Below, in pieces: positions 20,742 through 43,074 of a DNA stretch of 52,611 nucleotides (position 1 is its first letter; each line of letters opens with the position of its first letter). The position numbers were made by a program, and so were the translations under genes. A model generated the notes under the pieces. It did no database searches, was not told the DNA's origin, and saw nothing but the letters and a program-made list of their open reading frames with translations. The stretch covers positions 10,326 to 62,936 of the forward strand of contig NZ_HG424534.1 of assembly GCF_000336385.2 (NCBI RefSeq). Direction: 5' to 3'. The stretch comes from Lysobacter antibioticus HS124 (GTDB taxonomy: Bacteria > Pseudomonadota > Gammaproteobacteria > Xanthomonadales > Xanthomonadaceae).

Positions 20742-23700
20742 TCAGTACTTCTTCTCGAAGTTGATCAGGACGCTGTGGTCGTCGTCGTTGCCGCTGCCGA
20801 ACAGGCCGCGGTATTCGAAGCGCAGCGCCCAGTCGCGCTCGCCCTGCAGCACAGCGCCGAGGCCGAACACGTAGCGATTGCGGTCCAGGCCGACGACGCG
20901 CGCGCGGTAGAACGGTCCGCCGAGCATGTCGGCATAGCTCATCGTCGCGATGCTGTCGTCCTCGAAGTCGTGCTGGTACTCCAACAGCACCCGCGGCGAC
21001 AAGCGCCCCCAGCTCATGTCGTAACGGTAGTCGATGCGCAGACCCAGGCTGGTGGTGGTGGTGTCGACGTCCTGGTCGCGATAGCGCAGCGCGTACAGCG
21101 GATCGCCGTGCTCGGTGTAGCCGTGCAGGCGCGCACGGGCGATGTCCAGGCGCGCGTACGGGGTCACCCGCAGGCGGTCGCGCTGGTGCTCGAAGCCGGC
21201 CGAGACCGAACCGAACCACTGCTTGCCGTCGCGCGAACCGCTTACCGTGCCGCCGGTGTCGGTAACGTAGCGGCGGGTGTCGAACGAGAGCCACTGGTAG
21301 CCGAGCAGGCCGTCGAGATAGAAGGTCTTGCCCGGGTGATAGCTGGCGTAGCCGACCAGGCTGTAGCTTTCGGCCTCGCTGCGGCTGCCTCGCTGGCCGA
21401 CGTCGGTGTCGTCGCGGCCGTAGCCGACGCCGCCGCCGAGGGCGAAGGCGTCGCTGAGGCGCACGTCGGCGCCGGCGCTGATGCCGCTGGTCTCGAAATC
21501 GAACCCGGCCGAGCCGCTGCGTCCGTCGCGGTTGCCGCTGTTGATCGTGCCGCCGGTCCACAGGCCGTAGCGGGTGCCGCTGCCGGCCACCGGCGCCGGC
21601 TCGGCCAGCGCCGCGCTGTCGTCGCCCAACAGCGGCTGACGGCAATCGCTGCCCGGAGTGCGGCGCGCTTCGTCGCGGCAGCGCGAGTCGATCGAGAAGC
21701 TCAGCCCGTTGTCGAAGCGGGCGCCGTTCTCGCCGCCTTCGTGCAGGCCCTCCATGCGCCGCTGGAAGTTGCCGATCTGGCTGTTGGCGAAACGCCGCGC
21801 CGCCGAGGTCTGCGCGCCGAGCAGGCCGAGCACTTCGGCGTCCTTGGACGGATCGCTGCGCGGCGCGACTTCTATCTCGATCGCCGCCGCCGAGGTCGCA
21901 TGCGCGTTGCTGATGGTGAAGCTGGCCACGGCCACGCCGGCGTAACCGATCACCGGCGTGTAGCGCAGTTGGAACCCGCCGCCGGAGCCGACGATGGCCG
22001 CCGTACCCGAACCGGCCGGGGTCAGCGAGACCAGATGGGCCGCGGTGAACGGGCCGCCGCGCGCGCCGGTGGTCAGCTCGACCACGACCGTTGCGCCCGC
22101 GACCGTGCGCACCCGCCGCGACACCGCCACCGGCACCGCGTTGACGGTGATGGTCGAGGTGATCGGCGCGGACGGGCCGAAGGCGTTGTTGAGCGTGTAG
22201 GTCAGAGCGATCGCGCCGGCGGTGTCGGCGGCGGGGGTGTAGACGATGCGCGTGCCGTCGACCGTCGCCGTGCCCGAGCTCGGCGGCGCCAACAGGGTCA
22301 CGCCGGTGAACGGGCTTCCGCTCGCGCCGGTCGCCGCATCGATGGTCACCGCCGTGGTCGACAGCGTGGTCGCGGTCTGCGGCTGGCCGACCGGAACCGG
22401 CAGCGCCGCGACCGTCACGGTCACGGTCGCCGGCGCCGAGGTGCCGCCCGGACCGGTCGCGGTGTAGGTGAAACTGTCGCTGCCGAAATAGTTGGCGGCC
22501 GGCGTGTAGACCACGGCGGTGCCGCTAACCGCGGCGCTGCCGTGGCTCGGGGGCGTCGCCACCGCGATCGAGGCGATGATGCCGGTGTCGTTGGCGACCA
22601 CATCGATGGTCGCCGGGACGTTGGCCAAGGTGCTGGCGCTGTCGTCGACCGCGACCGGCACCGCGTCGGCGACGACGATGCTGTAGCCGATGGTGCGGTT
22701 GTAGCCGGCATCGTCGGTCGAGCGCACGGTGAAGCTGTAGTTGCCGGCCAGCACCGGCGTGCCGCTCAGCGTGCCGGCCGAGGAGAACGCGATTCCGACC
22801 GGCAGCGCGCCGGACACGATCGAGTAAGTGTACGGCGCGATGCCGCCGCTGCTGCTCAGGCTCTGGCTGTAGGCGCTGCCGACCACTCCGTTCGGCAAGG
22901 TCGACGGCGAGATCACCACCGTCGCCGGGTCGATGCGCAGGGTCCGCACCACGCTCGCGTTCTGGCCGTTGGCGTCGGTGGCGCGCACGGTCAGGCTGAA
23001 ATTGCCGTCGCTGCGCGGCACGCCGGACAGCGCGCCGGCCGAGCTGAAGCTCATCCCGATCGGCAGCGAGCCGGCCAACAGCGAGTAGCTGTACGGCGCG
23101 ACGCCGCCGCTGGCGCTGAAGTTCTCGCTGTAGGCGGTGCCGGCGGTGCCGTCGGGCAGGCTCGGCGGGTCGATGGTGATGCTCGGCGCGCCGACCTGGA
23201 TCACGTAGTTCTGGTCGATCGAGAACGGCGCGCCGGTACCGGTGCTGGAATCGGTGGCGCGGACGGTCAGCGAATAGCTGCCCGGCACGGTCGGGGTGCC
23301 GCTGAGCACGCCGGCCGAGCTGAAGCTCACGCCGACCGGGAGCGAACCGGCCGTCAGCGAGTACGAGTACGCCGGGGTACCGCCGCTGGCGCTGAAATTC
23401 ACCGTGGTGGCGACGCCGTACGGCATCGATACCGTGCCGGCGGACGGGGTCATGCTCAGCGTCGGCGCGCCGACCGTGAGGGTGAACGATTCCGACTTCG
23501 TCGACGGCCCGTCGCCGGTGCTGCTGTCGGTGGCCTGGACGTTGACGGTGAAGCTGCCGGCCTGGGCGGGCGTGCCGCTGACGGTCAGGCTGTCGCTGCC
23601 GGTGGCGGTCAGGCTCAGGCCCGTCGGCAGTCCGCTGGCGCTGTAGCTGGCGTAAGGCGCGGTACCGCCGCTCCAGGTGAAGCCGACGCTGTAGCCGGCG

Positions 23701-25766
23701 CCGACCTGGGCATTCAACGAACCCGTCGGGGTGACCGTGATCGTCGGCGGAGCGACGACGATCGAGACCGTCGCCGGCGCCGAGGTGCCGACGCCGTTGG
23801 TGGCGGTGTAGGTGAAGCTGTCGGCGCCGTAATAGCCGGCCGTCGGCTGGTACGTGATCGAGGCGCCGCTGGCGATCGCGGTGCCGTGCGCCGGGGCGCT
23901 GCCGATCGCGACCGAGGTCGGCGTGCCGCCGGTGATCGACAAGGCGATCGGGGTGGCTCCGGCGTTGTAGGCGACGGAGGCCGAGACCGGGTTGGCGATC
24001 GGCGCGATGTCGGCGATCTGCAGCGTATAGCCGCGCGGCGCCGAGTTGTATGGTCCCGAGCCGGTGCTGGAGTCGGTCGCGACGACGGCGAAATTGAAGG
24101 TGCCCGGCGCAGTCGGCGTGCCGCTGAGGTTGCCGGTGCTGGCCGACAGGGTCACGCCCGGCGGCAGCGAGCCGGCCGTCAAGGCATAGGTATAGGGCGA
24201 GGTGCCGCCGCTGGCCGGGTTGAGGGCGGCGCTGTAGGCCGCACCCAGCGTGCCGTTGGCCAGAGTGGTTGCCGGCAGGGTCACCGTCGCCGGATTGATG
24301 GTGAAGATGTAAGCGCGCGAGCCGGTGTAGGGTGCGCCGGCGCCGGTGCTCTGGTCGGCGGCGATGATCATGAAATTGAACGACCCGCCCGCGGTCGGCG
24401 TGCCCGACAGAACGCCGCCGGCGCTGATGTTCAAGCCCGGCGGCAAAGCGCCCGGCGGTGCCGAGAACGTGTAGCTGCCGTTGCCGCCGCTGGCGCTCAG
24501 GGTCTGGCTGTAAGCCACCCCGACCGTGGCTGCCGGCAGGACCGGCGGATCGACGTTGATGTTCGGCGCCGCCACGACCAGGCTGTAGGCGCGGCTGCCG
24601 ACGAAGCTGTTGGCGTCGGTGGCACTGACGGTGAAGTTGAAGGTTCCCACCGCGGTCGGCGTGCCGCTGAGATCGCCGCCCGTAGACAGGGTCAGGCCCG
24701 CCGGCAGACTACCGGCGGTGACCGCGAACGTGTACGGCCCGGTGCCGCCGGTAGCGCTGAGGGATTGGCTGTAAGCGACCGCGGAGGTCGCATTGGACAA
24801 CGTCGGCGGGCTGACGACGATGGTCGGCGCCGCCGCGACGGTGACGGTGTACAGGCGGCTGCCGATGTTCTGCGAAGCGTCCTGCGCGGTACTGTCGTCG
24901 TCTGACAGGATGCGGAAGGTGTAGGTGCCGGTTGTAGTGGGCGTGCCGCTGATCACGCCACCGGCGCTCAAACTTAATCCCGGCGGCAGCGAATCGGGTT
25001 CGGCCTGCACTGAATAGCTGTAAGGCGCCACGCCACCGCTGCTGGCGAGGGCGGTGTTGTATGCAACACCGACAGCCATAGCTGGCAGCGTAGCGGGTGA
25101 AATCGTCGGCACGACCGTGGGAACAGCGATGCTGTAACTTTTGACAGTGCTCAACGGTGTCGGCGTGCTCGAATCGGTCACCGTAATCGAAACCGAGAAA
25201 GTACCGCGTTGCGTCGGCGTACCGCTGAAAGTACCGGACGCAAAACTCAGCCCAGTCGGCAAGGTTCCGCTCGTTTGGACGAAGGTATAAGGGTCCGTGC
25301 CGCCGCTGGCGGCCATAGTGGCATTGAATGGCTGTCCAAGGACCGGCGAAATGGTCGCCGGGGTGACGGTAATCGGCGACGTCGGCGCGCTGATGTTCAC
25401 GTTGACGGTGACAAAGCCGCCTATGCCATCCCGGAAAACAAAGCTGTCGCTTGTCGCTGTATTTCCGTTGTGTGTGTAGGTAACGAGTTGGGCAAGCGGA
25501 TCGGTCGATGCCACGCCATGAGTCGGAGGCGTGGCGATATTACCGATACCGCTGTCATCGGGACCGTCGCAGGCACCGGCGTCTAGGACATGAGTTCCTC
25601 CGTTCGCGACGGAGATCGTGAACGTAGTGCAGTAGATGCCGGCCGTTGCCCAGCCGGACCACAGCAACGACACCGCCAAAAGCATCAAAACAGCGCCGCA
25701 GCGCTGAAGCCGCCTCAAACCGCGCAAATGATGCGAGTTCGCGCCATGCATGCCATGCCCAACCAT
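20742..25766 (-). CDS. Giant Ig-repeat autotransporter/adhesin
   Basis: About 1,674 residues if the ATG at 25766 is used (25751 is an alternative). A signal peptide ends near SGWATAG. Residues about 45-125 form a first Ig-like module. Residues about 130-1030 hold nine He_PIG-type Ig repeats, each with a PYTFxxxxGxLPxGLxL core and an SGTPT-x-x-GxF border, interrupted by one Big_9-type module at about 586-673. Three further Big_9-like modules reach about 1295. A linker with ARRFANSQIGNFQRRMEGLHEG leads to a C-terminal autotransporter beta-barrel (about 1393-1674) ending in FEKKY with a terminal aromatic. It would be a surface-displayed fibre passed out by its own barrel. No protease motif was found. 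The 5' end has lower GC than the rest. Confidence 0.88.
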   Translation of the reverse strand: MVGHGMHGANSHHLRGLRRLQRCGAVLMLLAVSLLWSGWATAGIYCTTFTISVANGGTHVLDAGACDGPDDSGIGNIATPPTHGVASTDPLAQLVTYTHNGNTATSDSFVFRDGIGGFVTVNVNISAPTSPITVTPATISPVLGQPFNATMAASGGTDPYTFVQTSGTLPTGLSFASGTFSGTPTQRGTFSVSITVTDSSTPTPLSTVKSYSIAVPTVVPTISPATLPAMAVGVAYNTALASSGGVAPYSYSVQAEPDSLPPGLSLSAGGVISGTPTTTGTYTFRILSDDDSTAQDASQNIGSRLYTVTVAAAPTIVVSPPTLSNATSAVAYSQSLSATGGTGPYTFAVTAGSLPAGLTLSTGGDLSGTPTAVGTFNFTVSATDANSFVGSRAYSLVVAAPNINVDPPVLPAATVGVAYSQTLSASGGNGSYTFSAPPGALPPGLNISAGGVLSGTPTAGGSFNFMIIAADQSTGAGAPYTGSRAYIFTINPATVTLPATTLANGTLGAAYSAALNPASGGTSPYTYALTAGSLPPGVTLSASTGNLSGTPTAPGTFNFAVVATDSSTGSGPYNSAPRGYTLQIADIAPIANPVSASVAYNAGATPIALSITGGTPTSVAIGSAPAHGTAIASGASITYQPTAGYYGADSFTYTATNGVGTSAPATVSIVVAPPTITVTPTGSLNAQVGAGYSVGFTWSGGTAPYASYSASGLPTGLSLTATGSDSLTVSGTPAQAGSFTVNVQATDSSTGDGPSTKSESFTLTVGAPTLSMTPSAGTVSMPYGVATTVNFSASGGTPAYSYSLTAGSLPVGVSFSSAGVLSGTPTVPGSYSLTVRATDSSTGTGAPFSIDQNYVIQVGAPSITIDPPSLPDGTAGTAYSENFSASGGVAPYSYSLLAGSLPIGMSFSSAGALSGVPRSDGNFSLTVRATDANGQNASVVRTLRIDPATVVISPSTLPNGVVGSAYSQSLSSSGGIAPYTYSIVSGALPVGIAFSSAGTLSGTPVLAGNYSFTVRSTDDAGYNRTIGYSIVVADAVPVAVDDSASTLANVPATIDVVANDTGIIASIAVATPPSHGSAAVSGTAVVYTPAANYFGSDSFTYTATGPGGTSAPATVTVTVAALPVPVGQPQTATTLSTTAVTIDAATGASGSPFTGVTLLAPPSSGTATVDGTRIVYTPAADTAGAIALTYTLNNAFGPSAPITSTITVNAVPVAVSRRVRTVAGATVVVELTTGARGGPFTAAHLVSLTPAGSGTAAIVGSGGGFQLRYTPVIGYAGVAVASFTISNAHATSAAAIEIEVAPRSDPSKDAEVLGLLGAQTSAARRFANSQIGNFQRRMEGLHEGGENGARFDNGLSFSIDSRCRDEARRTPGSDCRQPLLGDDSAALAEPAPVAGSGTRYGLWTGGTINSGNRDGRSGSAGFDFETSGISAGADVRLSDAFALGGGVGYGRDDTDVGQRGSRSEAESYSLVGYASYHPGKTFYLDGLLGYQWLSFDTRRYVTDTGGTVSGSRDGKQWFGSVSAGFEHQRDRLRVTPYARLDIARARLHGYTEHGDPLYALRYRDQDVDTTTTSLGLRIDYRYDMSWGRLSPRVLLEYQHDFEDDSIATMSYADMLGGPFYRARVVGLDRNRYVFGLGAVLQGERDWALRFEYRGLFGSGNDDDHSVLINFEKKY

Positions 25767-26666: not shown

Positions 26667-27197
26667 ATGAGCGAACCTTACGTCGGCGAGATCCGCATGT
26701 TCGGATTCGGCCGGGTACCCACCGGCTGGTTTGCCTGCGACGGCAGCCTCTACCCGATCTCCCAGTACGAGACCTTGTTCGTCCTGCTCGGCACCACCTA
26801 CGGCGGCGACGGCGTGTCCACCTTCGCCGTACCCGATCTGCGCGGCCGCGTGCCGGTGCATTTCGGCAACGGCCCGGGCTTGAGCCCCTATGTCATCGGC
26901 CAGCGCAGCGGCGTCGAAAGCGTCACCCTGGTTTCGGGCCAGATGCCGCAACACACTCACACGGTGGTGGCGACCACACTGCTTTCCACCGTCAAGCAGC
27001 CTGGATCGACGGTGGAGTTGGGGGCCCTGAGCGGCGACACGATGTATCTGACCGATATCACCGGCCTGCCGCCGGTCCCGCAGGCAGCTGCCGCGGTGAC
27101 GCCGGCCGGCGGCACCCAGCCGCACGACAACCTCATGCCCACCCTTACGGTGCAGTTCTGCATCGCCTGGGCCGGCATCTACCCGTCGCAGACTTGA
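26667..27197 (+). CDS. Phage-tail-collar (MdpB-like) protein, copy 2
   Basis: 176 residues. Same architecture as its neighbours but the most divergent: VGEIRMFGFGRVPTGWFACDGSLYPISQYETLFVLLGTTYGGDGVSTFAVPDLRGRVPVHFGNG, then SGVESVTLVSGQMPQHTHTVVA, a variable stretch (VKQPGSTVELGALSGDTMYLTD) and QPHDNLMPTLTVQFCIAWAGIYPSQT. The substitution of CNG by CDG and NLQGR by DLRGR matches one subtype of the family. It starts 64 bp after copy 1 and is followed at 46 bp by copy 3, so the three are probably one operon. Confidence 0.9.
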   Translation: MSEPYVGEIRMFGFGRVPTGWFACDGSLYPISQYETLFVLLGTTYGGDGVSTFAVPDLRGRVPVHFGNGPGLSPYVIGQRSGVESVTLVSGQMPQHTHTVVATTLLSTVKQPGSTVELGALSGDTMYLTDITGLPPVPQAAAAVTPAGGTQPHDNLMPTLTVQFCIAWAGIYPSQT

Positions 27198-27243
27198 TAC
27201 GGCGTCCCGCATCGCGGGACGCACCAGCACCAGGAGCAAGACC

Positions 27244-27771
27244 ATGTCCGAACCCTTCATCGGCCAGATCCAGCTGTTCGGCTTCAACTTCCCGCCGCGC
27301 GGCTGGGCCTTCTGCAACGGCGCCACTCTGGCGATTCAGCAGAATACCGCGCTGTTCTCCCTGCTGGGCACCCAGTACGGCGGCAACGGCCAGACGACCT
27401 TCCAACTGCCCAATCTCGTCAATCGCGCCGCCTGCGAGCAAGGCCAGGGACTGGGCCTGACCGATCGCACCATCGGCGAAACATTCGGCTCTAATAGCGT
27501 AACGCTCACTTCGCAAGAGATGCCGGCCCATACCCACCCCATGCAGATCTACAGCCAAAACGACACGACCAAGCGGCAGCCCTCGCCAGCGAATGGCAAC
27601 GCCCTGGGCAGCCCGTTGGCCTCTGCATTCTTCAACGGGCCAGCCGATTCGCCCTTCCCGCCGACCGTGATCCAGCCCGCCGGCGGCGGCCAACCGCACG
27701 AGAACCGCCAGCCCTACCTGGCGATGAACTTCTGCATCGCCTTGCAGGGCGTGTTCCCCTCGTTCGGCTGA
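27244..27771 (+). CDS. Phage-tail-collar (MdpB-like) protein, copy 3
   Basis: 175 residues, preceded by AGGAGCAAGACC. The collar domain reads FIGQIQLFGFNFPPRGWAFCNGATLAIQQNTALFSLLGTQYGGNGQTTFQLPNLVNRAACEQGQGLG, then GETFGSNSVTLTSQEMPAHTHPM. The middle is Ser/Asn-rich and the end is GQPHENRQPYLAMNFCIALQGVFPSFG. Closer to copy 1 than to copy 2. A Cys in the ACEQG segment replaces the usual GRTPV, a local oddity. The acetyltransferase gene begins 5 bp downstream, so it is probably part of the same transcript. Confidence 0.9.
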   Translation: MSEPFIGQIQLFGFNFPPRGWAFCNGATLAIQQNTALFSLLGTQYGGNGQTTFQLPNLVNRAACEQGQGLGLTDRTIGETFGSNSVTLTSQEMPAHTHPMQIYSQNDTTKRQPSPANGNALGSPLASAFFNGPADSPFPPTVIQPAGGGQPHENRQPYLAMNFCIALQGVFPSFG

Positions 27772-34573: not shown

Positions 34574-35783
34574 CCTGCTGCGCGGCGGCCTGGGCGCCGC
34601 GGCGCGGCAAGGGACGCTCCTGGGCCAGACGCTGGTACAGCGCCACCACCTGCGTCATCAGCCCTTCGGTGCTCCAGGCGCGGGCGTCCTGCGGCCCCGC
34701 CTGGGACAATTGCGCGCGCAGTTCCGGCGAACGCAGCAATCGCGCCACGTGGCCGGCGAACGCATCGACGTCTTCGTCGCTGATGAGGGCGCTGCGCGCA
34801 TCGCGCAGCACCGTCGCCGTACCCATTACCGCGGTCGAGACGATCGGCACGCCCAGCGCCATGGCCTCGATCAGCACCAGGCCCTGGGTCTCGGTCGGCG
34901 AGGCGAACACGAAGGCATCGCCGGCCCGGTAGGCATCGAGCAGGGTCGTGCGCCGGTCCAGGTTGCCGAAGAAACGCACGTTCGCGTCCAGGCCGTATTC
35001 GTGCGCCAGACGCTTGAGGCGCGGCGCGTCCGGCCCTTCGCCGGCGATGATGAACATCAGCCGCGGAAACTCGGCGACCAGCCGCCGCGCCGTCTGCAAC
35101 AGGAACGCGATGTTCTTCTCAACCGCCAACCGGCTGACCGTGACCAGGGTCGGCCGATCGGCGGCGATGTCGTGGGCGATGCGGAAACGCGTACCGTCGC
35201 CGCGGGCGAATTCGCTCAGGTCGATCCCGGTCGGCAGCACCGTCGCCGCGGTGGTCACGCCGTAGCGGCGCAGCACTTCGGCCATCTGCTCCGAGGGCAC
35301 GATCAGGTGATCGACGCCGTGGCAGAGCATGCGCGACAGGCGCCGGGCGACGAAGCGCAGCAGCGGCGCGGGCGCCCACGGCAGGTAGTGGCCGATGTAT
35401 TCCTCGAAATAGGTGTGGTAGGTCTCGACCGTCGGCCGGCCGGTCAGCTCGGCCAGGCGCACGCCCATGCGGTGGGCGCGGAACGGCGTGTGGACGTGGA
35501 TCACGTCCCAATGCCGCGCCGCCAGCGCGGGCATGATGCGGCGCAGCTCCGGCGCGCGGATCAGCCGGTCCTCGGGGTCGAAGAAGATCACCCGCGAAGC
35601 CAGCCGGATCAGTTCGAACTCGTCGCTGTCGTGCTGCTCCTGACCGCTGCCGGGCCCGTAATCGGGCGCCACCACGGTCACCGAATGCCCCATCCTCGCC
35701 AGCGACTGGGCGAACGTGCGGATCGAGGTCGACACCCCGTTGACCCGCGGGAAGTAGACGTCCGACAGCATCAGGATGTTCAT
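34569..35783 (-). CDS. GT4-family glycosyltransferase
   Basis: 404 residues. The N-terminal domain reads MNILMLSDVYFPRVNGVSTSIRTFAQSLARMGHSVTVVAPDY, then DVIHVHTPFRAHRMGVRLA, THxTYFEEYIGHYLP-type sequence and VDHLIVPSEQM. The C-terminal GT-B domain has SRLAVEKNIAFLLQ and the EX7E motif ETQGLVLIE (E298 and E306). This pattern is that of GT4 enzymes related to diacylglycerol glycosyltransferases and mannosyltransferases (MgtA/PimB-like). It lies 67 bp after lanM on the same strand and may share its transcript, so either a lipid or the lanthipeptide could be its acceptor; nothing in the sequence decides. Confidence 0.9.
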   Translation of the reverse strand: MNILMLSDVYFPRVNGVSTSIRTFAQSLARMGHSVTVVAPDYGPGSGQEQHDSDEFELIRLASRVIFFDPEDRLIRAPELRRIMPALAARHWDVIHVHTPFRAHRMGVRLAELTGRPTVETYHTYFEEYIGHYLPWAPAPLLRFVARRLSRMLCHGVDHLIVPSEQMAEVLRRYGVTTAATVLPTGIDLSEFARGDGTRFRIAHDIAADRPTLVTVSRLAVEKNIAFLLQTARRLVAEFPRLMFIIAGEGPDAPRLKRLAHEYGLDANVRFFGNLDRRTTLLDAYRAGDAFVFASPTETQGLVLIEAMALGVPIVSTAVMGTATVLRDARSALISDEDVDAFAGHVARLLRSPELRAQLSQAGPQDARAWSTEGLMTQVVALYQRLAQERPLPRRGAQAAAQQG

Positions 35784-35850
35784 CCCGCCAGCCTAGCCTC
35801 CGCCCATGACCGAATCGTGGCGGCGGACCGGGCGGCCCGCCGCGCCCGCT

Positions 35851-38685
35851 TCAATGCCCGGCGCGCCGCTCGAACACCAACGGCGTGGCCAGGGGGCAGT
35901 CCGGGTGCATGCGGTTGAGCGCATGCACCGCACCGGCGACGCCGGTCATCAAGCCCGGCGTGAATGCGTCGCGGGCGCGGCTGCCGACCGCGCCGCGATG
36001 CTCCTCGATCGCCGACACGATCTGCATGGTGTGCTCGGCCGGATCGCCCCAACCGCCGTCCGGGTCCAGCCGTGCGGCGCGCGCCAGCAGCTCCCACAGG
36101 GCCAGATCGCCGTGGCACAGGGTATGGCTGGCGCCCCAGCCGAAGCCGCGCGCGGCCTGCGCGGCGCGACGCAGATCGCGCAGATGGCGCGCGTCGCCGG
36201 TGAGTTCGTACAGGTCGCAGGCGGCCAGGCCGATCCCGACGCTGCCGTGGCACCAGGCGTGCAGGAACTGGTCTTCGTCGGCGATGCGCGCATCGCGCCA
36301 GCAGCCGGCGCGGTCGTCGTACAAGCCGTCCTCGAACGCGAAGGCGCGTTCGGCCAGGGCCCGCCAGCGGGCACGGTCCTCGGCGCTGCCGGCGGCGCTG
36401 TGGCCGATCCGGCTCAGCGCCCAGCCGATACCGCTGGCGCCGTGGGCGTAGCCGCCGATCGGCGCGTCGAAGATCGTCGACGGCCAGCGCGCGCCGCGGT
36501 CGTCGACGATCGCCTGCGATTCCATGAACCGGGCCGCGCGCGCCGCCAGCTCGCGCCAGCGCGCGTCGCCGCTGGCGTCGGCCAGTTGCAGCAACGGCAC
36601 GATCGCGCCGCTGGCCCCTTCCAGCAGATCCAGGTAACGGTCGGCGTCGAAGCCGGCCGCATCGAGGGCCTGCGCGCGTTCGATCGCCCATTCCAGCATC
36701 TGCGGCCGTTGCAGCAGATCGTGCAAGGCGATCCAGGTCCAGATCTGCGCGCCGTAGCCGATCATGCCGCCGACCGTACTCGGGCTGTCGGCCTGCTCGA
36801 TCGCGCGCACCGCGCTCAAGGCGCCGTCCAGCGCCGGCTCCAGGCCTTCGACCGGATCGGCGCGTCCCGCGCGGCATTCGTGCAGATAGCCGGCCAGGCT
36901 CAGCGCGACACCGCCCAAGCCGGTGTACAGGTCTGCCTGCAGCGGCCGGGTCACCCAGCCGGTATCGCCGAGCACCGGGCTGATCCAGGTCACGCTGCCG
37001 TCGTCGCCGTACACCGCCAGGCGCAGCAATTGCCCCACCGCCTGCGCCGCGGCCGCGCGCCGGCGCTGGTCGAGCCGCTCGGCGTGCGGATGACGGGCGA
37101 CGATGTCGGCGCGCACGCGCTCGTTCTTGCCCAGTCGCTGATTCAGATCGACCGTGACCAGGGCGCTGCGGATGGTCAGTTCCTCCAGTTCGACCCGCAT
37201 CCGCCGCCAGCGCTGCAAGGTCTCCTCGATCCGCGCCGGGTCCAGCGGGGCGACGAAGATCGGCACGTCGCCGATGCGCATGTCTTCGATCTCGCCGTCG
37301 ATCTCGTGCGCCGACGAGGGCGCGATCGGCAGGGCGACGGCGTTGCGGCGCAGAATGTCGCGGGCGCGCTCGATCGCTTTGGGCTCGTCGTGCAGCGAGG
37401 CCGGATGCCAGAGCATGCGCATGATCTCGACATAGGCCTGGGTCGGCCGGCGGATGTCGCGCGCCGGGCAGCCCAGGAAGCCGCGCAGCAGCGGCTCCAG
37501 CGCGCCCTCGGCATCGAGCGCGCGCAGGCGCGCGGTGGCCTCGACGAATCCCTCGCTGATCCGGTCCCAGAACCGGGTCACCTCGGGATGGGGGCTGGGA
37601 TGGTTCTGCGACTGGCCGAAGTCGGTGCTGACGATCTCCAGCCGCGCGCGCGCCGTGCCTTCGTCGGCGATCGCCGGCATGCGGATCTGCGGTTGTTCGC
37701 CGGGCAGCGCGCCGGCGGCGGAGATGTCGACGCCGCCGAAGCCGAGCACCGGCGCGCGGAACGGCACGATGCCGGTGCGCAGCACCGACGTGCGGATCAG
37801 TTCGGAGGCCAGATCGAAGGCGCGGCCGCGCGCCGAAGGCGGCGTATCGACTTCGATCGCGAACAGGCTTTCGACGTCGATCGCGACCGGCACCGGCCCG
37901 GCCGCGATCAGGTTTTCCTGGTGCAGGTCGGTGCCGCCGAGCAACTGCATCGCCGCCAGCCAATGACCGAGATTGCGGTAGAACGTGCCCAGTTCGGCGT
38001 CGCCGTCGCAGTAGCGGTGGTCGACGAAGCCGGTCCAGCCGTAGTCGCCGCAGTCGAGCGCGTACGGCACCCGGATCCGCAGCGGATCGTCGCCGAACAC
38101 GCGGGCCAGGAACGCGTCCAGGGCCAGGTCGATGCGCAGCGATCGCGGCTTGTACATGATCCGGCCGCCTTCGAAACCCAGCCGGACCACGGTCTGGCCG
38201 CCGGCATGGCGGTCGCCCTCGCCCGGCTGCACCGCGAGCAGACGCCCGGGGGCGCGGCCGAGCAGTTCGCCCAGGCGCTCGCGGTCCTGCGCGATGCGTG
38301 AGGCCAACGCTTCCAGCGCCAGGCGCTGCAGCTCCAGGGTGCGCTGCAGGCGCGCATGCAGGGCCGGATAGCGCCGGCGCAAATGCGGGTCGAACTCCGG
38401 CTGCAGCGCCAGGGTGATGAACTGCTGGAATTGCTCGACATCGTCCTGCGCCGGCAACTGCCCGCCCAGGCGTGCGGCATGCAACTCCAGCAGCAAGGTG
38501 CGGCTGAGCTTGAGCCGCGCATTGTCGTTGAGGGTCTGCGCGCCGACTTGCCGCAACAGCGCGATCTCGTCGCGGTCCAGCTTCGGCGCCAGGCCGGCCA
38601 GGGTCGCGTCCAGTCGGGCGCGCGGCTCGGCGGTGAAGGTTTCGATGATCGGAAGGAACGACTCGCCGTTGCTGGGTTCGCTCAT
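35851..38685 (-). CDS. lanM: Class II lanthipeptide synthetase LanM
   Basis: 944 residues from the ATG at 38685 (a GTG at 38712 would add nine). The DUF4135 dehydratase half shows YKPR (K179), GTDLHQEN (D253, H255, N258) and VAIDVESLF (D270); the spacing from D253 to D270 equals that of CylM D347 to D364. The LanC-like cyclase half (about 590-944) has GYAHGASGIG (H748), WCHGSVGIG (C812) and LCHGDLALW (C857, H858), the complete zinc site. The protein should phosphorylate and eliminate Ser/Thr, then add Cys to form lanthionine rings. It follows two precursor genes by 178 bp, with a strong hairpin between. Confidence 0.94.
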   Translation of the reverse strand: MSEPSNGESFLPIIETFTAEPRARLDATLAGLAPKLDRDEIALLRQVGAQTLNDNARLKLSRTLLLELHAARLGGQLPAQDDVEQFQQFITLALQPEFDPHLRRRYPALHARLQRTLELQRLALEALASRIAQDRERLGELLGRAPGRLLAVQPGEGDRHAGGQTVVRLGFEGGRIMYKPRSLRIDLALDAFLARVFGDDPLRIRVPYALDCGDYGWTGFVDHRYCDGDAELGTFYRNLGHWLAAMQLLGGTDLHQENLIAAGPVPVAIDVESLFAIEVDTPPSARGRAFDLASELIRTSVLRTGIVPFRAPVLGFGGVDISAAGALPGEQPQIRMPAIADEGTARARLEIVSTDFGQSQNHPSPHPEVTRFWDRISEGFVEATARLRALDAEGALEPLLRGFLGCPARDIRRPTQAYVEIMRMLWHPASLHDEPKAIERARDILRRNAVALPIAPSSAHEIDGEIEDMRIGDVPIFVAPLDPARIEETLQRWRRMRVELEELTIRSALVTVDLNQRLGKNERVRADIVARHPHAERLDQRRRAAAAQAVGQLLRLAVYGDDGSVTWISPVLGDTGWVTRPLQADLYTGLGGVALSLAGYLHECRAGRADPVEGLEPALDGALSAVRAIEQADSPSTVGGMIGYGAQIWTWIALHDLLQRPQMLEWAIERAQALDAAGFDADRYLDLLEGASGAIVPLLQLADASGDARWRELAARAARFMESQAIVDDRGARWPSTIFDAPIGGYAHGASGIGWALSRIGHSAAGSAEDRARWRALAERAFAFEDGLYDDRAGCWRDARIADEDQFLHAWCHGSVGIGLAACDLYELTGDARHLRDLRRAAQAARGFGWGASHTLCHGDLALWELLARAARLDPDGGWGDPAEHTMQIVSAIEEHRGAVGSRARDAFTPGLMTGVAGAVHALNRMHPDCPLATPLVFERRAGH

Positions 38686-38810
38686 CGTGTCGGTGCGTCC
38701 TGCGGAATCCACGGAACCGCGGGCTGGCGCGGGCCGTTCGCGTTCGCGGGATCGGCGCCGGCGCAGGCTGCGGCGGAGTTCGGCGGGCGGCAGGGCCGGC
38801 CCGCAAGATC

Positions 38811-38844
38811 GGACTCGCTCCCGGCTCGCGCCGGGAGCGAGTCC
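38811..38844 (-). promoter_or_regulatory. Perfect intercistronic hairpin between precursors and lanM
   Basis: A 15-bp perfect stem, GGACTCGCTCCCGGC with its complement and a TCGC loop, lies 19 bp past the second precursor's stop and 125 bp before lanM. Only a weak T-run (GATCTTGCGG) follows in the leftward direction. Such hairpins often act as partial terminators or RNA stabilisers, keeping precursor mRNA in excess over the synthetase mRNA. Function is inferred. Confidence 0.75.
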
Positions 38845-38863
38845 GCGCTGGCTCAGCGTCTGC

Positions 38864-39040
38864 TCAGCAGCAGTAGCCGCCGCCGGAAGCGCTGCAGCTG
38901 CTGCAACGGGTCAGCAGCGGCAGAGTGGTGTCGGTCAGCGCGGCTTCGGTCGCGGCGACGCCTTCGACGTACAGCGGGCCGGCCGGGTTTTCCGATTCCG
39001 AACCGTTCAACCAACCCGAAACGATGTCTTCGATCTGCAT
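38864..39040 (-). CDS. Lanthipeptide precursor A2
   Basis: 58 residues with AAGGAGAGG 4-12 bp before the ATG. Leader: MQIEDIVSGWLNGSESENPA, GPLYVEGVAATEAALTDTTL and PLLTR. Probable core from residue 46: CSSCSASGGGYCC. The core has four Cys and four Ser, no Thr, and a Gly-Gly-Gly. The conserved NPAGPLY motif recalls DUF6229, a small family of RiPP-like precursors, from memory only. It differs from its upstream twin at seven positions (six in the leader, one in the core: Y56 instead of Q). No double-Gly cleavage site is obvious at the leader end, so the cleavage point is uncertain. Confidence 0.9.
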   Translation of the reverse strand: MQIEDIVSGWLNGSESENPAGPLYVEGVAATEAALTDTTLPLLTRCSSCSASGGGYCC

Positions 39041-39078
39041 GAACCTCTCCTTGTCGGTAACAGACGTTCAGCGCTGGA

Positions 39079-39255
39079 TCAGCAGCACTGGCCGCCGCCG
39101 GAAGCGCTGCAGCTGCTGCAACGGGTCAGCAGCGGCAGGGCGGTGTCGGTCAGCGCGGCTTCGGTCGCGGCGGCGCCTTCGATATACAGCGGACCCGCCG
39201 GGTTCATGTCTTCCGAACCGTTGAGCCAGCCCGAAACGATGTCGTCGATCTGCAT
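39079..39255 (-). CDS. Lanthipeptide precursor A1
   Basis: 58 residues; ribosome binding site AAGGAGAGG upstream of the ATG at 39255. Leader: MQIDDIVSGWLNGSEDMNPA, GPLYIEGAAATEAALTDTAL and PLLTR, followed by the core CSSCSASGGGQCC. The gene is a tandem duplicate of the second precursor with a period of 215 bp, and the ribosome-binding region is duplicated too. It is the first gene of the leftward unit with the second precursor, lanM and probably the glycosyltransferase. The promoter must lie in the 39256-39614 gap; a TGTATTGA stretch just upstream is a weak -10 candidate. Confidence 0.9.
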   Translation of the reverse strand: MQIDDIVSGWLNGSEDMNPAGPLYIEGAAATEAALTDTALPLLTRCSSCSASGGGQCC

Positions 39256-39614
39256 AAACCTCTCCTTGTTCAATACATGATTGGAATCGGTGGCGGCCCG
39301 CGCCGGGATGCCGGCAGACGGGCCGATTCCGATCGGTGACGGCGAACGTGCACGGAGTCGTTGCGGACGGCGGAGCGAGCCTCATCGGCTTCGGACACCG
39401 TCCCCTGGCAACTCCGCGCCGACACGCTGCGCGCTCGCCCGCCCTCGTGTCAACTGTCAGTTCGATTATTGCGCCGCACAAGAAAAGCGTCGCGAACGTA
39501 CGCGAAGTCGGCGAAAATCCGTTCGCACCGCCGTAGTGCCCGTTCATCGCATTCCGGCCCCTCTCCGTCCCGCGCATTCCGCGATAACTATCACGCTTGC
39601 CGCCCTCGCCGCCG
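39256..39614. other. Divergent gap between lanthipeptide and PLD genes
   Basis: 359 bp with lower-GC stretches near 39440-39500 (GTCAGTTCGATTATTGCG), as expected for promoters running both ways. No gene or clear operator was recognised. Confidence 0.5.
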
Positions 39615-41114
39615 ATGTCCGACCGCTTGCAATCCGCCGCCGATGCCGCCCCCGATGCCGTCCCCGCGCGCAAGCGCCGCGGGCCGCGGCGCGCGCTGTA
39701 CGGGGCGGTACTGATTTGGGCCGTATCGGCGATCTGGCACTCGTACAAGCCGCTGCCGGAAGGGGTGAGCGCGCAGCATCCGCTGCGCGCTGCGCGCGAT
39801 GTCGCGTTGCTGAGCGACGTCACCTGGGTCGATGCGGACGGCACACGGCGCAGCGAACAACGGATCTTCGACGAAAGCCTGCGCCTGATCGGCCAGGCGC
39901 GGCGCGCCGTGGTCGCCGACCAGTTCCTGTTCAACGATTTCGCCGCCGCCGACGGCGAACGCCATCGCCGTCTCAGCGACGAACTCGCGGCCGCGCTCAT
40001 CGCGCGCAAACGCGCTGTGCCGCAACTGCATGCGGTGTTGATCACCGATCCGATCAACACCGTCTACGGCGGCCGCCGTGCCCCGCGCCTGGAAAGTTTG
40101 CGCGCGGCGGGGATCGAGGTGGTGACGACCGATCTGGGTCGCTTGCGCGCACCGAATCCGGCCTGGTCCGGGCTATGGCAGCTGTGTTGCCGCTGGGCCG
40201 GCAACGACCCCGACGGCGGCTGGCTGGCCAATCCCTTCGGCCCCGGCCGGGTCACCCTGCGCAGTTGGCTGGCGCTGTTCAACTTCAACGCCAACCACCG
40301 CAAGACCCTGGTCGTCGACGAAGGCGACGGCTGGACCGCGTTGGTCGCCTCGGCCAATCCGCACGACGCCAGCAGCCGCCACGGCAACGTCGCTCTGCGC
40401 TTCCACGGCGCGGCCGCGCTCGACGTACTGGCCAGCGAGCGCGCGGTGGCGCGGATGTCCGGCGCGACCTGGCCGCAGGGCCTGCCGCAGGCCGCGCCGC
40501 CGCCGACCATCGTCGACGCCACCCTGGCGCCGCGCGTGCAGCTGCTGACCGAAGCGCGCATCCGCGACGCGCTGATTGCCGCGATCCAGGGAGCGCGACG
40601 CGACGAGCGCGTCGACTTGGCGGTGTTCTATCTGTCCCACCGCGGCGTGATCGATGCCCTGATCGCCGCCCAGCAGCGCGGCGTGCGGCTGCGCGTGCTG
40701 CTGGACCCGAACGAGGACGCGTTCGGGCGCAAGAAGAACGGCGTGCCCAATCGCCAGGTCGCCGCCGAACTGCATGCGGCCGACGTGCCGCTGCGCTGGT
40801 GCGACACGCACGGCGAGCAGTGTCACGCCAAACTGCTGCTCAAGCGCGGCGGCGACGGCCGGATCGAGCTGATCGCCGGCTCGGCCAACTACACCCGGCG
40901 CAATCTCGACGACTACAACCTGGAGAGCAGCGCGCGGATCTTGGCCGAAGCCGATGCGCCGGTCGCGAGCGAGGCTCTGGCGTATTTCGAGCAAAGCTGG
41001 GGCAACGGCGACGGCCGCCGGATCAGCACCGACTATGCCGCTTACGCCGACGATTCGGCGCTGCGGCGCCTGTGGTACCGCTTCGGCGAAGCCACCGGGC
41101 TGTCCAGCTACTGA
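39615..41114 (+). CDS. Phospholipase D-like / cardiolipin synthase-like protein
   Basis: 499 residues from the ATG at 39615. A single membrane-anchor segment lies at about 28-44 (ALYGAVLIWAVSAIW). The first HKD motif is complete: NHRKTLVVD followed by ASANPHD. The second is partial: CHAKLLLKRGG followed by GSANYTRRN, with the usual Asp not at the expected place. This resembles cardiolipin synthases of the PLD superfamily and their relatives, but the altered second motif makes the exact reaction unclear. The gene is divergent from the lanthipeptide precursors; a role in membrane change or self-protection is possible but only by position. Confidence 0.82.
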   Translation: MSDRLQSAADAAPDAVPARKRRGPRRALYGAVLIWAVSAIWHSYKPLPEGVSAQHPLRAARDVALLSDVTWVDADGTRRSEQRIFDESLRLIGQARRAVVADQFLFNDFAAADGERHRRLSDELAAALIARKRAVPQLHAVLITDPINTVYGGRRAPRLESLRAAGIEVVTTDLGRLRAPNPAWSGLWQLCCRWAGNDPDGGWLANPFGPGRVTLRSWLALFNFNANHRKTLVVDEGDGWTALVASANPHDASSRHGNVALRFHGAAALDVLASERAVARMSGATWPQGLPQAAPPPTIVDATLAPRVQLLTEARIRDALIAAIQGARRDERVDLAVFYLSHRGVIDALIAAQQRGVRLRVLLDPNEDAFGRKKNGVPNRQVAAELHAADVPLRWCDTHGEQCHAKLLLKRGGDGRIELIAGSANYTRRNLDDYNLESSARILAEADAPVASEALAYFEQSWGNGDGRRISTDYAAYADDSALRRLWYRFGEATGLSSY

Positions 41115-41229
41115 CCGCTCCGCGCCGCATGCTGCGGCGCAACGTGCCCGATCGGACGATGGCGCCGTCGCCGCGACGGTGGCCCACTGCGGTCGCGCCG
41201 GCCCCGGTTCCGGCGCAGGAGCCGATCGC

Positions 41230-43074
41230 ATGTCCGTATCGCCGCATCCGCCCGCGCTTGCGTCCCAGCGCCCCTCGCCGCCGCGCCGGTATCGCCGCAG
41301 GCGCATCGCCTCGCTGCTGCTCGCGGCCTGGGCGGCGCTGACGGTCCTGTCCGCCGCGGCATCGACCGAAGTCGTGGGCTTCGGCAGCAACCCCGGCAAT
41401 CTGCGCATGTACCGGTACGTGCCGCCGGGCTTGCCGGCCGGCGCGCCGCTGGTCGTAGCCCTGCACGGCTGCGCCCAGAGCGCCGCGTCCTACGATGCCG
41501 AAACCGGCTGGGAGATGCTCGCGCAACGCTGGGGTTTCGCCTTGCTGCTGCCCCAGCAGCAGAGCGCCAACAACGCCAACGCCTGTTTCAACTGGTTCGA
41601 GCCCGGCGACACCGCACGCGACCAGGGCGAGGCCTTGTCGATCCGGCAGATGATCGAACGCATGCGCGCCGACCACGGCAGCGCCGCCGACCGAGTCTAT
41701 GTCACCGGCCTGTCCGCCGGCGGCGCGATGACCGCAGCCCTGCTCGCCGTCTATCCGGATCTGTTCGCCGGCGGCGCCGTCGTCGCCGGTCTGCCTTACC
41801 GCTGCGCCACCGGTTCCTCGGCGGCGTTCGCATGCATGTCGCCGGGCACCGACCTCAGCCCGAAGCAATGGGGCGACAAGGTGCGCGCAGCCGGCGCGCA
41901 CGCCGGCCCCTGGCCGATTGTCTCGATCTGGCACGGCGACGCCGATTACGTGGTGCGACCGATGAATCAGGCCGAGCTGATGCAGCAGTGGACCGACGTG
42001 CACGGCATCGACCAGGCCGCCGACGTGCAGGACACCGTCGCCGGTCATCCGCACCGGGTGTATCGCGACGGCGCCGGGCGCGCGCGCGTGGAGACCTACG
42101 CCATCGTCGGCATGGGCCACGGCACGCCGGTCGATCCGGGCAGCGGCGAGACCCAGTGCGGCACCGCCGGGGCATACGTGCTCGATGCCGATATCTGCTC
42201 CAGCTACTACATCGCCCGTTTCTGGGGCTTGGACGATCTCGACCCGAACCCGCCGCAAGTCGCGCTGACCGCGCCGTACGACGGCGCCCAAGTCAACGGC
42301 CTGGTGACTCTGAGCGCCGAGGCCGCCGACGACGTCGGCATCGAGCGCGTCGACTTCCTGCTCGACGGCGCGGTGATCGCCACCGACCGTCTGCCGCCCT
42401 ACCAAGCGCAATGGAACAGCGCCACCGCCACTAACGGCGCGCATGTGCTGCAGGCGCGCGCCGAAGACATCGCCGGCAACCAGGCCGGCTCGCCGCCGAT
42501 ATCGGTCACCGTCAGCGGCGGTAGCGACGGCCCGCCGCTGGTCATGGAATTCGTCAACGAAGACGCCAACGACGGCTACGTCAAAGCCAACGCCGACGGC
42601 AGTGCCGCCGCAGTGGGCGCGCTGGAAGCCAGTTACGGCCTGGCCGTGGGACGCGGCAGCGACGGCAAACACAATCGTAGCGTGTTGTCGTTCGATACCT
42701 CCGCCCTGCCCGACGGCGCCACCGTGCTCGGCGCCACGCTCAGCGTCGGCTTCGGCAGCGCCTACGGCGATCCGTGGAGCCAGCCGGCCGGCAATCGTCT
42801 GCTGATCGACGCGCGCCGGGGCTGCTTCGGCGGCTGTACGATCGAAGCCGGCGACTATGCCGCAGCCGCCGATGCGTCCGCGGTCGCCGAGTTGGCGCGC
42901 TTCGGCGGCGGCCGTCAGACCAGCACCCCGTTCGACGCCGCGGGCCTGGGCGCGATCGACCGCGCCGACCGCACCCAACTGCGGCTGCGCTTCGAGCAAC
43001 CGCCCGGCGCGACGAACTACCTTTGGATCGAGCGCGGCGCCGGCGCCAGACTGCGGGTGGAATACCGGCCCTGA
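41230..43074 (+). CDS. Secreted PHB-depolymerase-like esterase with C-terminal Ig and DNRLRE-like modules
   Basis: 614 residues. A signal peptide ends near SAAAST. The alpha/beta-hydrolase part (about 45-330) carries the lipase box GLSAGGAMT (S162), an acidic WHGDADYVVR segment and GMGHGTPV (H297). PLVVALHGCAQSAASYD is the oxyanion-hole region typical of esterase PHB depolymerases and feruloyl esterases. An Ig-like domain follows (about 340-435, PPQVALTAPYDGAQVNGLVTL). The last about 170 residues (NEDANDGYVKANADGSAAAV...YLWIERGAGARLRVEYRP) form a DNRLRE/CBM96-like beta sandwich. The added modules suggest binding to a polymer surface. The substrate, polyester or feruloylated polysaccharide, is not resolved. 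Confidence 0.86.
   Translation: MSVSPHPPALASQRPSPPRRYRRRRIASLLLAAWAALTVLSAAASTEVVGFGSNPGNLRMYRYVPPGLPAGAPLVVALHGCAQSAASYDAETGWEMLAQRWGFALLLPQQQSANNANACFNWFEPGDTARDQGEALSIRQMIERMRADHGSAADRVYVTGLSAGGAMTAALLAVYPDLFAGGAVVAGLPYRCATGSSAAFACMSPGTDLSPKQWGDKVRAAGAHAGPWPIVSIWHGDADYVVRPMNQAELMQQWTDVHGIDQAADVQDTVAGHPHRVYRDGAGRARVETYAIVGMGHGTPVDPGSGETQCGTAGAYVLDADICSSYYIARFWGLDDLDPNPPQVALTAPYDGAQVNGLVTLSAEAADDVGIERVDFLLDGAVIATDRLPPYQAQWNSATATNGAHVLQARAEDIAGNQAGSPPISVTVSGGSDGPPLVMEFVNEDANDGYVKANADGSAAAVGALEASYGLAVGRGSDGKHNRSVLSFDTSALPDGATVLGATLSVGFGSAYGDPWSQPAGNRLLIDARRGCFGGCTIEAGDYAAAADASAVAELARFGGGRQTSTPFDAAGLGAIDRADRTQLRLRFEQPPGATNYLWIERGAGARLRVEYRP

Follow-up and report, generated by a model that had tools for sequence, protein, structure and literature searches.

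Rhodanocins, the closest described relatives of the system considered here, are class II lanthipeptides made from DUF6229 precursors. The family was named when a precursor from Dyella sp. 333MFSha was expressed in Escherichia coli with its LanM, yielding a product with four dehydrations and three rings (PMC9576775). Nuclear magnetic resonance (NMR) analysis of this rhodanocin (LanII) located the rings at Thr6–Cys11, Cys8–Ser14, and Thr12–Cys23, the second being a reversed Cys-to-Ser ring formed as an LL-lanthionine, and showed that Thr18 remains dehydrobutyrine (Dhb); the minimum inhibitory concentration (MIC) against Klebsiella pneumoniae is 126 µM (PMC9576775). A survey of 24 Lysobacter genomes catalogued 72 class II clusters; of their 27 unique precursors, 21 are DUF6229, in six similarity families, and the text of that survey describes no characterized product (PMC11451712). 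Raised lanM expression is reported for L. gummosus and L. capsici, and according to the same two papers Lysobacter had not yet yielded an isolated lanthipeptide (PMC10745450, PMC10380237). DUF6229 lanthipeptides are common in Lysobacter and its relatives, with a solved ring pattern for only one. The locus described here lies in the window, the whole stretch of 52,611 nucleotides of Lysobacter antibioticus HS124 DNA that was analyzed (contig NZ_HG424534.1), and consists of two tandem precursor genes, a hairpin, and lanM (Table 1). By its sequence features, it almost certainly represents a class II lanthipeptide locus of the DUF6229/rhodanocin family.

A first-pass annotation of the window, made from the sequence alone, had already proposed a class II lanthipeptide locus and had left the precursor family to a profile search. 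In a Pfam search, both short frames exceed the gathering cut-off of DUF6229 (PF19740), whereas neither has a match among the NCBIfam profiles. These scores rule out orphan or unrelated short frames and, together with two papers in which the family is described (PMC9576775, PMC11451712), also rule out a new precursor family. The earlier ranking of the locus as the best candidate for a new system in the window has consequently been given up, because a DUF6229 precursor was shown to give a class II lanthipeptide in 2022 (PMC9576775) and the family has since been mined and catalogued in Lysobacter (PMC11451712). The synthetase matches TIGR03897 at 497.6 bits (cut-off 304) and contains a DUF4135 dehydratase domain (PF13575, 290.7 bits) and a LANC_like cyclase domain (PF05147, 114.5 bits), and is the sole LANC_like match in its genome. 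Residues K179, D253, H255, N258, D270, H748, C812, C857, and H858, which had been listed before as dehydratase and zinc-site residues plus H748, are correctly numbered from the ATG at 38685 and are invariant in an alignment of 12 LanMs; we take these nine residues to have dehydratase and zinc-site roles. A Ser/Thr/Cys-rich precursor adjoining lanM, as is expected of a class II lanthipeptide system, is present.

Precursor and synthetase are also linked across genomes, in a co-occurrence search of the kind that the first-pass annotation had suggested. LanM lies directly downstream on the same strand in the window and in 49/49 other regions chosen by DUF6229, and downstream in 20/20 further regions chosen in this way; in the reverse direction, of the 80 loci chosen by LanM similarity (the best 80 of 122 related loci), 77 carry a DUF6229-type gene next to LanM. 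Sequence begins only 144–196 nt ahead of the LanM match in the remaining three, which explains these misses because the upstream gene would lie off the contig. These sets of loci overlap and comprise 121 distinct loci by LanM and 114 distinct precursors. With both frames above the PF19740 cut-off and this linkage in both search directions, family membership is beyond chance. A scan of genome contigs with precursor 2 alone returned 592 pattern matches and no confirmed relative, and for this reason the second scan was made with the LanM alignment. In overlapping genome samples, DUF6229 occurs in 3/398 genomes of the phylum-wide sample, all three from the window's own family, in 43/397 of the order sample, and in 33/395 of the family sample. 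Two records in the collection call for separate mention. A contig labeled Bacillus subtilis SK7B5 (L159) carries a Stenotrophomonas-like DUF6229/LanM pair, which is probably contamination of that assembly, and in a record labeled Rhodococcus rhodnii (L183) the precursor is the same as in Kibdelosporangium aridum (L169) and the LanM is very close, which points to mislabeling or recent transfer.

The core of the window precursors contains T44-x-C46-x-x-C49-S50-x-S52, which is the spacing of the rhodanocin ring residues. The corresponding pattern, [ST].C..C[ST].S, is found in 36/114 distinct precursors, against 0.185 expected by shuffling, and is distributed over the window's LanM clade (26/74 precursors) and the other clade (10/40). 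Dropping the leading [ST] from the pattern, to give C..C[ST].S, recovers the same 36 precursors, all of which have Ser or Thr at −2 of the first Cys even though it is not demanded; the core had been called Ser/Cys-only, which is true only if it starts at C46 and leaves out Thr44 of the motif. Loci with the motif span Pseudomonadota, Myxococcota (Corallococcus), and Actinomycetota (Kitasatospora, Saccharothrix, Kibdelosporangium, and the record labeled Rhodococcus). In a Streptomyces/Amycolatopsis clade of 11 loci with a CSSP core, the −2 Ser/Thr and the +3 Cys, the proposed ring partners, are both absent. A Ser/Thr between the first two Cys residues accompanies two C-terminal Cys in 56/56 precursors, and where it is missing a single C-terminal Cys is found (3/3 precursors, from two loci). 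Of the 114 precursors, only that of L204, a locus from the window's own order, has the full set of published rhodanocin positions. Conservation of Thr44, the joint loss of the −2 and +3 residues, and the tracking of the second C-terminal Cys by the Ser/Thr between the first two all fit retention of the two overlapping rhodanocin rings, one of them reversed, in the window peptide. On balance this retention is slightly favored; the rings are carried over by analogy, since rhodanocin has three Cys and the window core four and the comparison uses published rhodanocin residue numbers.

In a midpoint-rooted FastTree phylogeny of 121 LanMs, the window LanM clusters with four other Lysobacter loci (support 100), next to a 43-member clade whose core types differ. 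LanMs with the CSSC core type fall on both sides of the root and require five changes, and the motif [ST].C..C[ST].S requires at least seven, which makes shared descent and repeated gain indistinguishable. L204 falls in the other deep clade, at an exact place that is unsure because long branches meet (L055 with L204, L186 with L165), and two members of that clade are 40–41% identical to the window LanM. Saccharothrix L166, L168, and L170 and Luteibacter-like L116 and L191 have a near-same core (CSSCTASRPVYCC, CSSCTASRPGFCC) and LanMs on opposite sides of the tree. Old retention is the simplest reading of the motif's spread, with repeated gain or transfer as the alternative. It is tentatively suggested, at slightly less than even probability, that this LanM family has long had one scaffold, the [ST]xCSxC[ST]ASx3CC core, which would hold the overlapping rhodanocin rings (one backwards) and a fourth ring and would have stayed near-unchanged across three phyla (Pseudomonadota, Myxococcota, and Actinomycetota) as identity between the enzymes fell to about 40%. 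Such a scaffold would point to a single conserved target or role, and the window LanM would then be a well-defined model of reverse ring closure by one cyclase site.

The two precursors differ at residues 4, 16, 17, 25, 28, 39, and 56. The counts given in the first-pass annotation, one difference between the cores and six between the leaders, are right, and the sole core difference is Gln or Tyr at residue 56. Stronger constraint on the core, which had been deduced from these counts, was dropped because the pair does not support it (1/13 core versus 6/45 leader residues, Fisher p = 1). When 33 related precursors are compared, similarity is higher in the core segment than in the leader for 24 and is not for 9; precursor 2 itself, which ties, is counted among the 9. 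All five synonymous codon changes that separate the copies fall at codons 9–24, outside the core, and given this restriction gene conversion may have contributed, alongside selection, to the similarity of the two cores. Tandem Q-type and Y-type copies are found in a second genome of the window's species (L036), where the precursors are identical to the window's, and in Lysobacter L037, whereas Lysobacter L038 and L039 have one copy each, of the Q type. Read from these copies, the duplication predates the split of the window's species from L037, since each holds both types. Two precursors occur in 6 of the 121 distinct loci. At L124 (Luteimonas), two precursors with unlike cores, CSSCTASSPVHCC and CSLCTGSSTTEHCC, precede a single LanM.

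All parts of the locus are on the minus strand, in the order lanA1, lanA2, hairpin, lanM from 39255 to 35851, and the two tandem 58-residue genes ahead of a complete LanM are present as first described. The precursor genes are separated by 38 nt and share the ribosome-binding site AAGGAGAGG, located 3 nt ahead of each ATG region; lanM ends at 35851 and may start at GTG 38712 (953 aa) or ATG 38685 (944 aa). A double-Gly leader with a linked C39-type transporter/protease, a usual but non-essential feature of class II systems, is lacking: no such transporter or protease was found at the locus, and no protein family besides LanM is common to all 50 regions, apart from low-complexity or lanM-shadowing frames. 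The C39 matches in the genome number three, every one on another contig. Flanking genes are common only to a group of five Lysobacter loci (the window and L036–L039). No sigma-70-like promoter was called in 35700..39700 by a scan that covers one promoter type only.

The whole is very probably best explained as a three-gene class II lanthipeptide operon of the DUF6229/rhodanocin family. Strong ribosome-binding sites would drive translation of both precursors, whereas most transcripts would be halted or trimmed at the hairpin, giving far less LanM than precursor. LanM would recognize the shared DUF6229 leader and phosphorylate and eliminate Ser/Thr residues near the C-terminus, after which its zinc-bound LanC domain would close the thioether rings. 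By identity of spacing with rhodanocin, these would include Thr44–Cys49 and, in reverse with the Cys ahead of its partner, Cys46–Ser52; further rings may join Ser50 to Cys57 or Cys58 and Ser47 to the remaining C-terminal Cys. Leader removal and export would depend on unlinked functions, and the two products would differ at residue 56. An antibacterial role of these peptides is about as likely as not.

The hairpin, which the first-pass annotation does not mention, separates the precursors from lanM and starts 18 nt past the stop of precursor 2. Across the five syntenic Lysobacter loci, two of which are from the same species and almost identical, pairing is preserved in 77/80 pair cells and both partners have been replaced in three pairs; when the partner column is shifted by one to three positions, 28–48% remain. 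At least 10 unbroken Watson–Crick pairs occur within 80 nt of the precursor stop in 48/80 loci of the window's LanM clade, compared with 0/80 inside lanM and 7/79 past its end, and shuffling gives a mean of 5.1 pairs; these counts are descriptive and carry no p-values because related loci are not independent. A T-run is present in the hairpin copies of L062, L069, and L191 and is weak in the window. At L069, the stretch from precursor to lanM holds two copies of the hairpin and T-run, and bases flanking them are repeated as well. A genome-wide repeat is ruled out, as the 14-base arm is exact only at the two arms of the hairpin and has 1–2 mismatches elsewhere (102 matches in the genome versus 281 for a backward control pattern). 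Stem-loops of such kind follow lanA in other lantibiotic operons, and a somewhat favored function for this one is attenuation or transcript processing, by which precursor would be kept in excess of LanM. Such a function is weakened by the 32/80 loci of the same clade that lack a long perfect stem, by the stem's presence in just 1/41 loci of the other LanM clade, and by the terminator scan, which made no call at the window hairpin with its weak T tail. If correct, it offers a plain account of precursor excess over enzyme in a LanM operon without other regulation.

The main alternative accepts the same operon with a ring pattern unrelated to that of rhodanocin, for example with C46 joined to the adjacent Ser47, the CC end joined to Ser50 and Ser52, and Thr44 left outside. 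In mersacidin, the first ring is likewise closed by a Cys on an adjacent residue. Several observations count against retention of the rhodanocin rings and in part speak for the alternative. The window core has four Cys instead of three, in a comparison with rhodanocin by published residue numbers only; the LanM clade of the rhodanocin-like L204 is distant; and Ser/Thr/Cys positions in Lysobacter DUF6229 cores are described as different from those of the anti-Klebsiella peptide (PMC11451712), as is also stated for another Lysobacter member (PMC9576775). Moreover, the CSSP co-loss and the one-Cys cases each amount to one or two evolutionary events, 65/114 precursors lack even a relaxed form of the motif, and in the 34-row precursor table Ser/Thr at +4 is demanded, and at +1 and +6 partly so, by the selection pattern. 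Unrelated rings nevertheless remain rather unlikely, given the Ser/Thr at −2 in every C..C[ST].S precursor and its loss jointly with the +3 Cys in one clade. If the window core keeps the rhodanocin pattern, one structure accounts for a core type of three phyla; if not, the locus is a further uncharacterized member of a catalogued family.

Two readings that depart further from the proposed operon are much less probable. The retention of tandem Q and Y copies in the window's species and in L037 could point to a two-component lantibiotic whose halves act together. The halves of such lantibiotics typically have dissimilar cores, whereas those in the window are one residue apart; two-precursor loci are rare in the family, and single-copy relatives carry the Q type, so that this reading is very improbable. 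It is scarcely credible that the locus is decayed or silent and gives no product, although it has neither a linked transporter or protease nor a called promoter: the catalytic and zinc residues of LanM are intact, another genome of the species has identical precursors, and the promoter scan recognizes one promoter type only. Relatives too are without a shared linked transporter, yet one family member was made and cyclized in E. coli (PMC9576775).

Table 1. Parts of the DUF6229/LanM locus, in window positions
Feature	Coordinates	Strand	Basis
Precursor 1 (lanA1), 58 aa	39079..39255	minus	ORF (open reading frame) ending TRCSSCSASGGGQCC; DUF6229, PF19740 77.5 bits, cut-off 25
Precursor 2 (lanA2), 58 aa	38864..39040	minus	ORF ending TRCSSCSASGGGYCC; DUF6229, PF19740 82.1 bits
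Shine–Dalgarno-like AAGGAGAGG of precursor 1	39259..39267	minus	Direct reading
Shine–Dalgarno-like AAGGAGAGG of precursor 2	39044..39052	minus	Direct reading
Hairpin in the spacer from precursor 2 to lanM; perfect stem of 16 bp, GCGA loop, weak T tail (ATCTTG)	38810..38845	minus	Direct reading; covariation across the five syntenic loci of Lysobacter
lanM, class II lanthipeptide synthetase, 944 aa	35851..38685	minus	TIGR03897, DUF4135, LANC_like; catalytic and zinc residues invariant

A divergent gene with a PLD-like domain (39597–41114, plus strand) adjoins the operon, in flanks that are common to the five-locus Lysobacter group, and a large frame at about 41108–43074 (plus strand) resembles, by eye, a secreted esterase with further domains. 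Elsewhere in the window, a 1674-aa autotransporter with nine He_PIG repeats (20742–25766, minus strand) adjoins a tandem gene pair in which phage tail collar domains are recognized (26667–27771, plus strand).

Among known enzymes, LicM2 (6st5) aligns with the window LanM at 168 bits over both the dehydratase and cyclase domains with matching active-site residues, and CylM (5dzt) aligns at 77 bits with a residue match that covers the dehydratase. Both are distant in sequence, and their substrates presumably belong to precursor families other than DUF6229. Six sequence strings of the family had no match in the text of the papers searched (figures and supplements were outside its coverage), which is consistent with the first-pass statement that no characterized product has this core; the statement needs qualification in that rhodanocin shares the spacing of five ring residues. 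Within the genus, a DUF6229 member (WP_036102482.1) encoded next to lysobactin genes in Lysobacter sp. ATCC 53042 agrees with the window in genus and precursor family (PMC9576775), and the window's core type may belong to the catalogued Lysobacter class II lanthipeptides (PMC11451712), both being compared by their published descriptions. The likeness to rhodanocin itself lies in a DUF6229 precursor with LanM and in Thr6, Cys8, Cys11, Thr12, and Ser14, which are spaced as T44, C46, C49, S50, and S52 (PMC9576775). Rhodanocin differs in its three rings and its single C-terminal Cys nine residues past Ser14 with Dhb in between (PMC9576775), whereas the window core has four Cys, Ser47, a CC end, and no Ser/Thr between S52 and C57.

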